DNA of 64,000 nucleotides from Pseudolabrys sp. FHR47 (GTDB lineage Bacteria > Pseudomonadota > Alphaproteobacteria > Rhizobiales > Xanthobacteraceae). Of the stretch, positions 25,288 through 57,275 are shown piece after piece. The stretch spans positions 248,001-312,000 of the forward strand of contig NZ_CP039740.1 of NCBI RefSeq assembly GCF_005153485.1. Direction: 5' to 3'. The notes under the pieces are model-generated. The model did no database searches, was not told where the DNA came from, and saw nothing but the letters and a program-made list of their open reading frames with translations. Within the stretch, counting starts at the first letter, position 1; each line of letters begins with the position of its first letter. The position numbers were made by a program, and so were the translations under genes.

Positions 25288-25395
25288 CACCTCTCCCATA
25301 GGGAGAGGTCGACGCGCGTTAGCGTCGGGTGAGGGGTTACAAAGTCGACAGTCAGGAGCCCCCTCACCCCAACCCTCTCCCCGACGGGGAGAGGG
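25288..25395. repeat. Palindromic intergenic repeat, CCTCTCCC family (copy R3)
   Basis: Full-length copy between dapB and gpmI: an arm hairpin CCTCTCCC-ATA-GGGAGAGG, a variable stem GACGC-GCGTTA-GCGTC, GGGTGAGGGG, a TTACAAAG centre, then CCCCTCACCCCAACC with a CTCTCCCCG-A-CGGGGAGAG hairpin. As the two genes converge here, it may also stop both transcripts. Confidence 0.85.
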
Positions 25396-37567: not shown

Positions 37568-37701
37568 CACCTCCCCCTGGAGGGGGGAGGTCGGCGTGCG
37601 CGAGCACGCCGGGTGGGGGTGATCTTGTCGGGCGAGTGCACCCCACCCCGCTCGCTGTCGCAAATGCTCCAGCGAGCGACCCTCCCCCTGCAGGGGAGGG
37701 T
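37568..37701. repeat. Palindromic repeat between rplT and pheS (copy R4, variant arms)
   Basis: Same layout as the CCTCTCCC family with different arms: ACCTCCCCC/GGGGGAGGT, a variable stem CGGCGTGC-GCGA-GCACGCCG, GGGTGGGGGTG, a short centre, CACCCCACCCC, a second variable stem (CGCTCGCTG / CAGCGAGCG) and a CCCTCCCC-TGCA-GGGGAGGG end. It lies inside the transcript linking rplT to pheS. Confidence 0.8.
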
Positions 37702-44539: not shown

Positions 44540-44650
44540 CCCTCTCCCCTTGGGGGAGAGGGTTGGGGTGAGGGGGCAAGTGACTCTCGATAGTTTGTAA
44601 CCCCTCACCCGGCGCACTTCGTGCGCCGACCTCTCCCTATGGGAGAGGTG
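44540..44650. repeat. Palindromic repeat, CCTCTCCC family (copy R5), carrying the queG stop
   Basis: Full-length copy with variable stem GGCGCAC-TTC-GTGCGCC and centre AAGTGACTCTCGATAGTTTG. It is in the same orientation as, and nearly identical to, the copy at about 45.8 kb except in the variable stem. The end hairpin CTCTCCCTATGGGAGAG contains, on the minus strand, the TAG stop codon of queG. Confidence 0.88.
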
Positions 44651-45872
44651 AAGCGAGCGCGGCGTCCCACTCCTCACGCACACCCGCATCCTCATCGTCG
44701 CGCTTCAGCGCCATAAACTCCTCGCGTGACTTCAGCCGCGATAGCGCCCATACGGCGGCGCCGCGCACCAGCGGTGATGCATCGTCGAGTAAGCGTTCGG
44801 CCTCCGGCGCCAGCGACGCATCGCCGGAGTTGCCGATGGCATAGAGCACATTGCGCACGAAGCGGTCGCGGCCGGTGCGCTTGATTGAGGTCTTTGTGAA
44901 CAACGCCCGAAATTGCGCATCGTCGAGCCGCACGAGATCGGCGAGCTTCGGCGCGCGTAACGCATCGCGCGCGGCGAGTTTTGCCTCGCGGCCGGCCTGC
45001 GCGAATTTGTTCCACGGGCACACGGCCAGGCAATCGTCGCAGCCATAGATGCGGTTGCCCATGGCGGCACGCAGGTCGCGCGGGATCGGGCCCTTGTGTT
45101 CGATGGTGAGGTAAGAAATGCAGCGCCGTGCGTCGAGCCGATAAGGCTCGGGGAAAGCCGCGGTCGGACAAGCATCAAGGCAGGCGCGACACGAACCGCA
45201 ACTGTCGCTGACAGGTTCATCTGTCGGCAGCTCGAGCGTGGTGAAAATCGCGCCAAGGAATAACCAAGACCCGAATTGGCGCGAAACTAGATTTGTGTGC
45301 TTGCCCTGCCAGCCGAGCCCGGCCTTGGCGGCGAGCGGCTTCTCCATCACCGCCGCCGTATCGACGAACACCTTCACGTCGCCGCCGGCATTCGCCACCA
45401 GCCAGCGTGCGATCTCCTTCAGCCGGGCCTTGATCAGCTCGTGATAGTCGTCGCCTTTGGCATAGACCGAGATCGCCGCGCGGCGCCGCTGCTGCAAGAT
45501 GTCGAGCGGGTTTTGATCCGGCCCGTAATTCATGCCGAGCATGATGACCGAGCGCACGTCGGGCCACAGCGCCAGCGGCGAGCCGCGGCGCGCGGCGGTC
45601 GTCTCCAGCCACGCCATGTCGCCATGCGCGCCGTCGGCGAGGAAGCGCTCGAGTCGCGCCTTGGCTTCCGGCACCGCATCGGGTCGCGTCACGCCAGCGA
45701 CGTCGAAGCCGCGCTCACGCGCGCGTTCGATCAGCGTCGCTTTTATTTCGGTTAGCGAAGCAAGCGGCGCGGCAAACTCAGCGAGCCCCCTCTCCCCTTT
45801 GGGGAGAGGGTTGGGGTGAGGGGGATACTGACTCTCGATAGTTTGTAACCCCTCACCCGACATGCTTCGCAT
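44637..45872 (-). CDS. queG: Epoxyqueuosine reductase QueG, termini supplied by repeats
   Basis: Cobalamin- and FeS-dependent last step of queuosine synthesis in tRNA. The protein has the QueG core: [47 protein letters not shown], ferredoxin-type clusters [17 protein letters not shown] and [14 protein letters not shown], and a C-terminal HEAT-like end ([18 protein letters not shown]). No ATG, GTG or TTG lies in frame between the repeat R6 and the conserved domain. The two usable ATGs are inside R6, the first preceded by GGGAGAGG, so about 30 repeat-encoded residues ([18 protein letters not shown]...) precede the domain. The stop and last residues (SPLP) come from repeat R5. This start gives 411 residues. 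Confidence 0.9.
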
Positions 45873-45900
45873 GTCGACCTCTCCCAATGGGAGAGGTGAA
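45787..45900. repeat. Palindromic repeat, CCTCTCCC family (copy R6), carrying the queG start
   Basis: Full-length copy with variable stem GACATGC-TTC-GCATGTC and centre ATACTGACTCTCGATAGTTTG. On the minus strand its GGGAGAGG arm acts as a Shine-Dalgarno sequence five bases before ATG, and the variable stem contains the two candidate queG start codons. Confidence 0.88.
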
Positions 45901-56043: not shown

Positions 56044-56511
56044 ATGACCATGACGCTTACCGATATAGTAGCGCCGGCCGCGATCATTCCGGCGCTCAAG
56101 GTCAACGGCAAGAAGCAAGCGCTGCAGGAACTTGCCGCGCGTGCGGCCGAATTGACCGGGCAAAGCGAGCGCGCGATCTTCGAGATCCTGCTGCAACGGG
56201 AGAAGCTCGGCTCGACCGCGGTCGGCAATGGCATCGCCATTCCGCATGGCAAGCTGCCGAAGCTCGGGCGTCTGTTCGGATTGTTCGCGCGGCTGGAGCG
56301 GCCGATCGACTTCGAGGCGCTCGACTCGCAGCCGGTGGATCTCATTTTCCTGCTGCTGGCGCCGGAAGCCGCGGGCGCCGATCACCTCAAGGCCCTGGCG
56401 CGCGTCGCGCGTATGCTGCGCGATCCCGAGACCGCGCGGAAGCTGCGCGAGTCGAGCGACACCGACGCGCTATACGCCGTGCTGGCCATGCCGCAGAGCA
56501 GCGCGGCTTAG
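56044..56511 (+). CDS. ptsN: PTS IIA-like nitrogen regulatory protein PtsN
   Basis: EIIA-Ntr of the nitrogen phosphotransferase system, a regulator of K+ uptake and nitrogen/carbon balance rather than a sugar transporter. The 155-residue protein carries the phosphorylation site His68 in GNGIAIPHGKLPKLGR, with the family segments ALQELAARAAELTGQSERAIFEILLQREKLGSTAVG and PVDLIFLLLAPEAAGADHLKALARVARMLRDPE. The ATG after CCCGGAC is the family start; upstream sequence in the same frame is not conserved. The palindromic repeat of the DUF559 cassette begins five bases after its stop. Confidence 0.94.
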   Translation: MTMTLTDIVAPAAIIPALKVNGKKQALQELAARAAELTGQSERAIFEILLQREKLGSTAVGNGIAIPHGKLPKLGRLFGLFARLERPIDFEALDSQPVDLIFLLLAPEAAGADHLKALARVARMLRDPETARKLRESSDTDALYAVLAMPQSSAA

Positions 56512-56515
56512 TCTT

Positions 56516-56575
56516 CCCTCTCCCCGCAAAGCGGGGAGAGGGTGGCCCGCATCTTATGCGGGCCGGGTGAGGGGC
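56516..56575. repeat. Left inverted arm of the DUF559 cassette (copy R7a)
   Basis: CCCTCTCCCCGC-AAA-GCGGGGAGAGGG, TGGC, a variable stem CCCGCAT-CT-TATGCGGG, CCGGGTGAGGGGC. Its outer and inner boundaries match the right arm in inverted orientation. Confidence 0.85.
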
Positions 56576-56582
56576 GGTTCCC

Positions 56583-56927
56583 ATGCGGGGGCCAAATCGG
56601 AAAAAGGTTTCGTCTGAGAGACGGTTGCGGCGTCAATCGACGGACGCAGAGATGATCCTGTGGCTGTCGTTGCGCGATCGCCGCTTGTCGGGTTTCAAGT
56701 TCGTCCGGCAGGAAGCTATCGAACCATTTATCGTTGACTTCGTGTGCCGCGATAAACGGCTGATCGTCGAAGTCGATGGCGGGCAACATTCAGAAAATTC
56801 AAAGGACCGAGAGCGTGACCGGAAATTGATTGAGGCCGGTTATCGTGTGCTTCGCTTTTGGAATAACGACGTGTTGCAGAACAAAAATGGTGTTCTTGAA
56901 ACAATTCTCGGCGCGCTGAGAGAGTGA
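56583..56927 (+). CDS. DUF559 (Vsr-like) predicted endonuclease
   Basis: Small PD-(D/E)XK-fold nuclease-like protein of 114 residues. The N-terminus is basic (MRGPNRKKVSSERRLRR). Then come STDAEMILWLSLRDRRLSGFKFVRQEAIEPFIVDFVC (catalytic-type Asp in IVDF), the EVDGGQH motif, and GYRVLRFWNNDVLQNKNGVLETI, the standard DUF559 ending. It is related in fold to the very-short-patch repair nuclease Vsr; cellular substrates are unknown. Its start codon lies eight bases after the left repeat arm and its stop five bases before the right arm. Codon use is more AT-rich than in its neighbours, consistent with transfer. Confidence 0.88.
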   Translation: MRGPNRKKVSSERRLRRQSTDAEMILWLSLRDRRLSGFKFVRQEAIEPFIVDFVCRDKRLIVEVDGGQHSENSKDRERDRKLIEAGYRVLRFWNNDVLQNKNGVLETILGALRE

Positions 56928-56931
56928 CGTT

Positions 56932-56986
56932 GCCCCTCACCCGGCTTGCTGCGCAAGCCACCCTCTCCCCGCAAGCGGGGAGAGGG
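56932..56986. repeat. Right inverted arm of the DUF559 cassette (copy R7b)
   Basis: GCCCCTCACCC, a variable stem GGCTTGC-TGC-GCAAGCC, then ACCCTCTCCCCGC-AA-GCGGGGAGAGGG: the left arm inverted, with a different but still self-complementary stem. Confidence 0.85.
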
Positions 56987-56996
56987 AAAAGGGTGC

Positions 56997-57275
56997 TCAA
57001 TGCACGCTGACAGCTTCGAGCTCGTTGCTCCAGGCGCTGGCCAGCGCGCTCTCGCGCGTGTCGGTCAGCATGATCGGCGTGCCGTCCGCGGCATGCAGCG
57101 CGAACAAAGTTAGGCCGGGCGCGATCTGCGGCGCCTGCGGAAACATGTTGGCGACATCTTCCGAACGGATGGGCTTCACATAAGCCAGCCGCCCGTCGCC
57201 CAGATGCGCCAGCGCATCCTGCGTGATTGCCGCCTCGTTGGTGGTGTTGGTGTCAGCCAGCTTGTGTTGAGTCAT
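56997..57275 (-). CDS. DUF1150 family protein
   Basis: Small protein of 92 residues found next to small heat-shock genes in alphaproteobacteria. The sequence after a polar start is ALAHLGDGRLAYVKPIRSEDVANMFPQAPQIAPGLTLFALHAADGTPIMLTDTRESALASAWSNEL, the family core. No enzymatic motif is present. It follows the Hsp20 gene by 70 bp on the same strand and is probably induced with it by heat. Confidence 0.9.
   Translation of the reverse strand: MTQHKLADTNTTNEAAITQDALAHLGDGRLAYVKPIRSEDVANMFPQAPQIAPGLTLFALHAADGTPIMLTDTRESALASAWSNELEAVSVH

Follow-up and report, generated by a model that had tools for sequence, protein, structure and literature searches.

The DUF559 nuclease gene described here is enclosed by two palindromic arms, and similar arms occur as pairs without any gene elsewhere in the same genome. 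This raises the question of whether gene and arms form one mobile unit and, if so, what moves it. Our window is a 64,000-nucleotide stretch of the Pseudolabrys sp. FHR47 genome (G000 in our genome set), and an earlier note on this DNA had read the locus as an autonomous unit with many gene-less derivatives.

Architecture of the cassette

The cassette covers positions 56514-56988 of the window and consists of the following elements:

56514-56575, plus strand: left arm, TM/PIT-like (direct reading and inverted-repeat search)
56516-56542: outer hairpin of the left arm, CCCTCTCCCCGC-AAA-GCGGGGAGAGGG
56544-56564: second hairpin of the left arm, between stem and tail
56565-56574: purine tail of the left arm, GGGTGAGGGG
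56583-56927, plus strand: DUF559 (Vsr-like PD-(D/E)XK) nuclease gene, 114 aa (PF04480, E 3e-38)
56932-56988, minus strand: right arm, inverted copy of the left arm (direct reading and inverted-repeat search)
56933-56942: tail of the right arm, CCCCTCACCC
56943-56959: second hairpin of the right arm
56961-56986: outer hairpin of the right arm

On both sides the order is outer hairpin, second hairpin and G-rich tail, with the tail facing the gene. Direct reading confirmed that two inverted arms frame the gene, and three inverted pairs of 16, 14 and 14 nt with 100% complementarity join the left arm to the right one. The spacing of 8 and 5 bp given in the earlier note had to be corrected to 7 bp on the left and 4 bp on the right. 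The upstream neighbour, which we take to be ptsN-like, ends at 56511, and the downstream neighbour (56997-57275, minus strand) is presumably DUF1150-like.

With the PF04480 profile the 114-aa ORF scored 130 bits (curated cut-off 20.6) at an E-value of 3e-38 and is therefore a member of DUF559. The Pfam search of this ORF returned one further match, to MTES_1575 and below threshold, and neither a RAYT nor a transposase. Comparison of 27 family members gave 18 invariant columns, including E23, D52, E63, D65 and H69, residues which we take to fit a Vsr-like active site. An AlphaFold2 model (pLDDT 83.5) matched 3hrl (E 4e-9), 3r3p, which is I-Bth0305I (3e-5), and 1vsr (4e-3), and the predicted fold is that of Vsr and PD-(D/E)XK homing endonucleases. 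By sequence, two solved relatives were found, and the homing endonuclease I-Bth0305I is one of them. Two other assignments were rejected: a defence system, for which a single match of 54 residues, to DpdF (E 3e-6), was obtained, and phage cargo, the protein being matched by 3 of 50,697 phage records.

Gene-less arm pairs in the window and in the own genome

When palindromes were counted on both strands, CCCTCTCCCCGC with at most one mismatch occurred 7 times in the window vs 0.82 expected, and 0 of 100 shuffles reached 7. Five inverted arm pairs of the window enclose no gene:

1597-1703: gene-less inverted arm pair with a 23-bp centre, TTACAAACTA.. family
25290-25394: gene-less inverted arm pair, TTACAAACTA.. 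family
37570-37699: gene-less inverted arm pair, CCTCCCCC family, with second hairpins
44541-44648: gene-less inverted arm pair, TTACAAACTA.. family, opposite orientation
45789-45896: gene-less inverted arm pair, polymorphic among same-genus relatives

The pairs at about 1597, 25290, 44541 and 45789 have ACCTCTCCC in one arm and CCCTCTCCCC in the other. It can be seen that the gene-less pairs of the window follow the order of the cassette, with the hairpin outside and the tail inside, around a centre of 21-24 bp. The other repeats had been said to share the cassette's arms around a 20-25-bp centre; this holds for the architecture, but these pairs have only part of their letters in common with the cassette arms. 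The closest gene-less pair by letters that we found lies outside the window (L282:9478-9613) and carries CCCTCTCCCCGC on one side of a 12-nt centre. Eight gene-less pairs were present in 400 kb of the own genome, which comprised 16 roughly evenly spaced stretches (5 pairs) and 4 stretches picked for known loci (3 pairs).

Inverted arms at DUF559 genes of other genomes

For quantification, the 250-bp upstream flank of each gene was aligned to the reverse complement of its downstream flank, and a score of at least 16 was counted as a pass. Of 78 DUF559 loci, drawn from several phyla, 59 (76%) had inverted arms vs 3 of 280 neighbouring ORFs (about 1%) and 3 of 610 random intervals, both controls being taken from these loci, the loci being the top scorers of each search rather than a random sample and the named and unnamed sets possibly overlapping. 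We started from 80 named loci, the top part of a larger collection, and removed two artefacts, L170 with poly-C and L124 with a stretch of N; with both retained the count is 61 of 80. Flanking far above chance, which the earlier note had proposed as a test, is thus borne out. Three of 356 control ORFs had arms: two were long ORFs lying between TM units, and the third was a GC-rich match.

The own genome contains five DUF559 matches, and all four of the stand-alone genes found are flanked by inverted arms. In one of these cassettes both flanks carry a different sequence (CCCCTCCCCC / GGGGTGGGGG), and a cassette is thus consistent between its left and right arm. The fifth match (L005, G000 about 1764466-1764774) is the C-terminal DUF559 domain of a methyltransferase-like protein, presumably TrmJ-like, and a gene-less pair lies directly past its stop codon. 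Fusions of DUF559 and of GIY-YIG to such methyltransferases have both been reported (PMC1829167).

On the family level, 94 of 100 genomes had a DUF559 match. Of 34 loci, a set in which the clipped loci L044 and L059 were not properly placed, 25 reached a score of 16, visual reading revealed TM hairpins at six more that scored below this, and L005 had none. A phylum-wide set (29 new loci, one clipped locus dropped) gave arms at 14 of 28 loci, and the association therefore weakens with distance. Genes lacking arms by the flank-alignment test, which had been named as evidence against a mobile unit, thus do exist (19 of the 78 loci, and 14 of 28 phylum-wide).

Left-right arm coherence was 0.71 within a cassette vs 0.30 with other cassettes, a difference inflated because pairs had been picked by their own alignment. 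Arm similarity correlated weakly with protein similarity (rho 0.12 in a Mantel test, 27 of 1000 permutations being as high). Of 30 family-level cassettes processed, 12 (counted by hand) have an ORF that enters the right arm and has an arm-encoded end like PHPNPLPxGERE; loci with such a tail include L001, L040, L041, L045 and L049. A DUF559 gene of Neisseria gonorrhoeae (L405) has TM-like units at either end, which point the same way instead of being inverted.

Relation of the arms to the TM motif

Judged by their letters, the arms resemble an already described element, the PIT/TM motif (PMC4666352). This motif forms an intrastrand triplex of a stem-loop and a third purine strand, has the layout CCCTCNCCC-loop-GGGNGAGGG-N3-GGGNGAGGG, and is dispersed, intergenic and variable between strains; E. 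coli MG1655 carries 23 copies, and five sites are inverted pairs (PMC4666352). The cassette arms resemble it in letters and broadly in layout, and are alike in dispersal, intergenic siting, strain variability and the presence of some inverted pairs. The authors treat PIT/TM only as a DNA motif and a source of instability and report no mobility gene beside it, and their main text does not use the words endonuclease and DUF (PMC4666352). Unlike the consensus, the window arms have a hairpin between stem and tail, a 22-nt stretch taking the place of the 3-nt loop, and many other cassettes fit the consensus layout. Direct reading also showed that the GTAG tag which marks the palindrome end in REPtrons is absent from the window arms.

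Among 398 genomes of the phylum, 98 had the TM pattern (2806 matches; a reversed-pattern control gave 8, counted by reading the table) and 110 a strong DUF559 match (E < 1e-10). The two occurred together in 75 genomes (odds ratio 24.7, Fisher p 3e-33, phylogeny ignored). Arms in genomes without a DUF559 gene had likewise been regarded as speaking against the mobile unit, and this was partly observed, since 23 of the 98 TM-bearing genomes lacked a strong match, 4 of these having a weak one; TM-rich examples with no strong match are G170, G275 and G333. Missing arms and missing DUF559 genes would also fit loss and decay, which have been invoked for missing REPtrons (PMC3733652).

G170, which is listed as 100% complete and has no strong DUF559 match, contains 39 TM copies; 13 pairs (L247-L272) account for 26 of these. 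The spacer of these pairs is short (about 24 bp in most), and unlike the cassettes they have their hairpins inside and their tails outside. The same hairpin-inside order was seen at E. coli lldD-trmL and at a Sinorhizobium cassette whose ends are double. TM motif no. 9 of E. coli lies about 168 bp downstream of the DUF559 gene ycjD, its tail directed away from this gene; ycjD of strain H240 showed a degenerate right arm only and no left arm. A sapF-ycjD-fabI query was covered to at least 80% in one place in 3330 of 5426 E. coli genomes. This site was dropped as an empty-site test since the strains without ycjD beside sapF (three strains, L229-L231) have efflux genes there.

Duplication of the unit and polymorphism of its sites

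Genome G115 contains two cassettes about 35 kb apart which share one 455-bp block of 93.6% identity with both arms inside. The block begins at the foot of the left outer hairpin and ends about 20 bp beyond the right one, and the flanks are otherwise unrelated. The whole unit was thus duplicated as one, in agreement with the earlier reading, and the same unit stands at unrelated sites, as is typical of insertion sequences and transposons. The two proteins differ at 10 of 130 residues, and the dN/dS ratio of about 0.18-0.20 indicates that there is purifying selection between the two copies. With palindromes counted on both strands, G115 gave 85 matches to the cassette unit, mostly arms and many as gene-less pairs; the inverted repeat of its gene-less units extends about 25 bp outside the hairpin.

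The ptsN-DUF1150 junction was compared in 30 same-genus loci, of which two were clipped. Among the 28 readable ones, the cassette was present in two (G000, G002), a solo hairpin in two (G011, G012) and a TM-like hairpin within a 193-bp junction in one (G024); the G011 hairpin is slightly imperfect, was missed by the pattern and was read by eye. The remaining 23 had neither TM hairpin nor gene by the search pattern, not every junction above 150 bp being read by eye, and several relatives have an apparent ordinary terminator there. Sites without the cassette, which the earlier note had proposed to look for at this junction, therefore exist. G000 and G011 have the gene-less pair at 45789, G001, G002 and G013 lack it, and the junction in G012 and G024 holds a pair with different letters. 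A second cassette (L003) lies in a gap between genes which we take to be dnaN and recF. It is absent in G011 and G001, four relatives have other genes in the gap, and G024 gave a 78% match spanning cassette and recF.

At the E. coli hrpB-mrcB site, where shorter alleles were examined in three strains, full, solo-hairpin and empty alleles occur, and the EH2252 allele suggests that a solo hairpin arises by deletion between two hairpins. The filled and empty sites also differ in about 12 bp outside each hairpin. Presence and absence were clear at all sites compared. Exact ends and a target-site duplication were not readable at ptsN-DUF1150, dnaN-recF, the 45789 unit, E. coli hrpB-mrcB and lldD-trmL, nor for a Sinorhizobium plasmid cassette vs Shinella, because the relatives compared were too diverged (roughly 80-90% DNA identity around the window). 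Taken together, the G115 duplication and the unpolarised presence, solo-hairpin and absence alleles support movement of the cassette unit well.

GIY-YIG genes between CGTC-like palindromes

GIY-YIG genes occur near palindromic repeats of this kind. For this reason, and because other palindrome families occupied the same junctions, GIY-YIG genes were tested in G000 and 40 further genomes of the family. Fifty loci with small GIY-YIG nuclease genes were read (L325-L374), four clipped ones were dropped, and inverted arms were found at 32 of the 46 remaining loci vs 0 of 339 random intervals. The arms (CGTCATT.., CCTCATCCTGAGG.., GTCGTCCCCGC..) were CGTC-like by our classifier in 29 of the 32 cases and by eye in the other three, and TM in none (0/32). 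At the DUF559 loci, 58 of 59 were TM and one was TM-like. The classifier consists of regular expressions that we wrote ourselves and that are wider than the published CGTC REP definition; the arms it left undecided (3 GIY-YIG, 1 DUF559) were assigned by eye. Phylum-wide, 7 of 25 GIY-YIG loci had arms (28 new loci, L377-L404, three clipped ones dropped) vs 0 of 165 random intervals, and none was TM by eye.

CGTC REPs are characterized by a CGTC end (in many TGTC or CCTC), a stem beginning with AT and a CCA tail, and they are described as apparently having no dedicated transposase (PMC3733652). Arm class tracks nuclease fold, and each of the two orphan repeat classes thus has its own nuclease candidate. 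Cassettes of GIY-YIG genes with CGTC-like arms would form an independent second system on the same plan.

Possible origin and spread of the cassette

We consider it probable, at roughly 0.6, that the cassette is a mobile element whose one gene, for a small Vsr-like nuclease, lies between inverted structured ends and that the gene-less pairs are its deleted relatives. Unit duplication, flanking rate and polymorphism favour the autonomous unit with MITE-like derivatives put forward in the earlier note, and class-specific pairing in the tested loci and purifying selection in one pair of copies were observed as well; that the nuclease is the driver of movement we infer. Also in favour are the co-occurrence of TM pattern and strong DUF559 match, the matches of the predicted fold, and a published Caulobacter DUF559 protein that is required for a response to DNA damage (PMC12907096). 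Against this reading stand the TM-bearing genomes with no strong DUF559 match, the DUF559 loci without arms, the single degenerate arm at ycjD in a species with 23 TM copies in MG1655, the weak arm-protein correlation and the lack of a readable target-site duplication. The gene-less paired arms would be internally deleted, MITE-like relatives of the cassette, and solo hairpins would remain after recombination or slippage between the two hairpins, which are palindromic and at the same time direct repeats of one another. As to the mechanism, the nuclease may recognise the arm in its folded form, as hairpin or purine triplex, when it is exposed in replication and may cut or nick at its base. Repair or replication would then join the freed ends elsewhere, and gene-less units could thereby be moved in trans.

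The main rival is homing, in which the gene-less pairs spread by other means and the nuclease gene invades their centre; its product would cut alleles that have no gene, and repair would copy the gene in. Such a history would place the gene at the exact centre of a paired unit, where it is found, and is consistent with I-Bth0305I as a solved sequence relative, with the GIY-YIG fold, which is described as also including homing enzymes, and with a weak arm-protein correlation that leaves room for gene exchange between arms. However, gene and arms are common to the two G115 sites as one block with otherwise unrelated flanks, and homing does not account for how the gene-less units spread; we regard it as unlikely. 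It is quite improbable that the arms are moved by a RAYT, another transposase or replication slippage with the nuclease as cargo or as a maintenance enzyme that protects or repairs them, because nuclease fold and arm class pair without a cross case in the tested loci and arms occur at just 3 of 356 control ORFs. This explanation would account for the 23 genomes with TM pattern and no strong DUF559 match. It also agrees with the proposal that a DUF559 protein of Caulobacter, which is responsible for an SOS response in cells without a methyltransferase, has a repair role like that of Vsr (PMC12907096), and with the recombination hot spots of evolving Legionella pneumophila, which include homing endonuclease genes and three segments holding a transposase together with a DUF559 protein (PMC12308824).

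Ordinary terminators or insulating hairpins that surround a small gene by chance deserve hardly any credence. The palindromes of the cassette site do lie between convergent genes, where terminators are expected, and several relatives have an apparent terminator at the same junction. Nevertheless, the inverted-arm rate at DUF559 loci compared with their neighbours led us to reject this explanation; the G115 duplication and the lack of terminator activity reported for TM motifs (PMC4666352) also stand against it.

Extending the mobile-element reading, one may tentatively think of a general class of mobile elements in bacteria, which for us is conceivable rather than probable. Its sole protein would be a small non-transposase nuclease, each fold being tied to its own palindrome superfamily (DUF559 to TM/PIT, GIY-YIG to CGTC-like), and the orphan PIT/TM and CGTC repeats would be its gene-less derivatives. 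Such elements would move through the cleavage of folded arms together with host replication and repair, which to our knowledge is the mechanism of no described transposon. If this is true, short palindromes would have a transposase-free route for their spread. Two widespread repeat superfamilies, the TM motif (PMC4666352) and the CGTC REPs (PMC3733652), are described in publications as lacking a known mobiliser, and a nuclease partner for each class opens a direct test of both mobiliser questions and ties two nuclease families to a possible role.

Comparison with described systems

The earlier note knew of no described system of this type. For the arms this no longer applies, since arms of such a type are already on record as PIT/TM (PMC4666352); a link between DUF559 and TM, or between GIY-YIG and CGTC, was found in no publication among the matches listed, in a search with subscription papers and preprints outside its scope. 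The parallel drawn with REP sequences and RAYTs proved apt. As in the REP/REPIN-RAYT systems (PMC3733652, PMC3116915), one gene lies between palindromes, many gene-less doublets exist and the repeat is enzyme-specific, and like a REPtron the cassette has a single gene between palindromes that also occur gene-less. In contrast to the RAYT, an HUH tyrosine enzyme, the cassette gene encodes a PD-(D/E)XK Vsr-like nuclease (or GIY-YIG) and is not a RAYT. RAYTs are described as single-copy (PMC3116915), whereas G115 holds two near-identical cassettes.

Insertion sequences and their MITEs likewise have inverted terminal repeats and, as proposed for the cassette, internal-deletion derivatives, but the only ORF of the cassette is no transposase and no target-site duplication was readable. 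The free-standing homing endonuclease I-Bth0305I (3r3p) matches the modelled protein in fold and in the size of the catalytic domain (E 3e-5); in contrast, no intron or intein was seen at the cassette site, and the cassette is bounded by dispersed repeats and occurs at many unrelated sites. The Vsr mismatch endonuclease and Caulobacter VsrA have a common fold with the cassette protein, and VsrA has a DUF559 domain (PMC12907096), but the cassette gene lies between palindromic arms and the unit contains no methyltransferase. A DUF559 cassette with nearly identical inverted ends of about 145 bp (score 122) was observed in Legionella anisa (L188).
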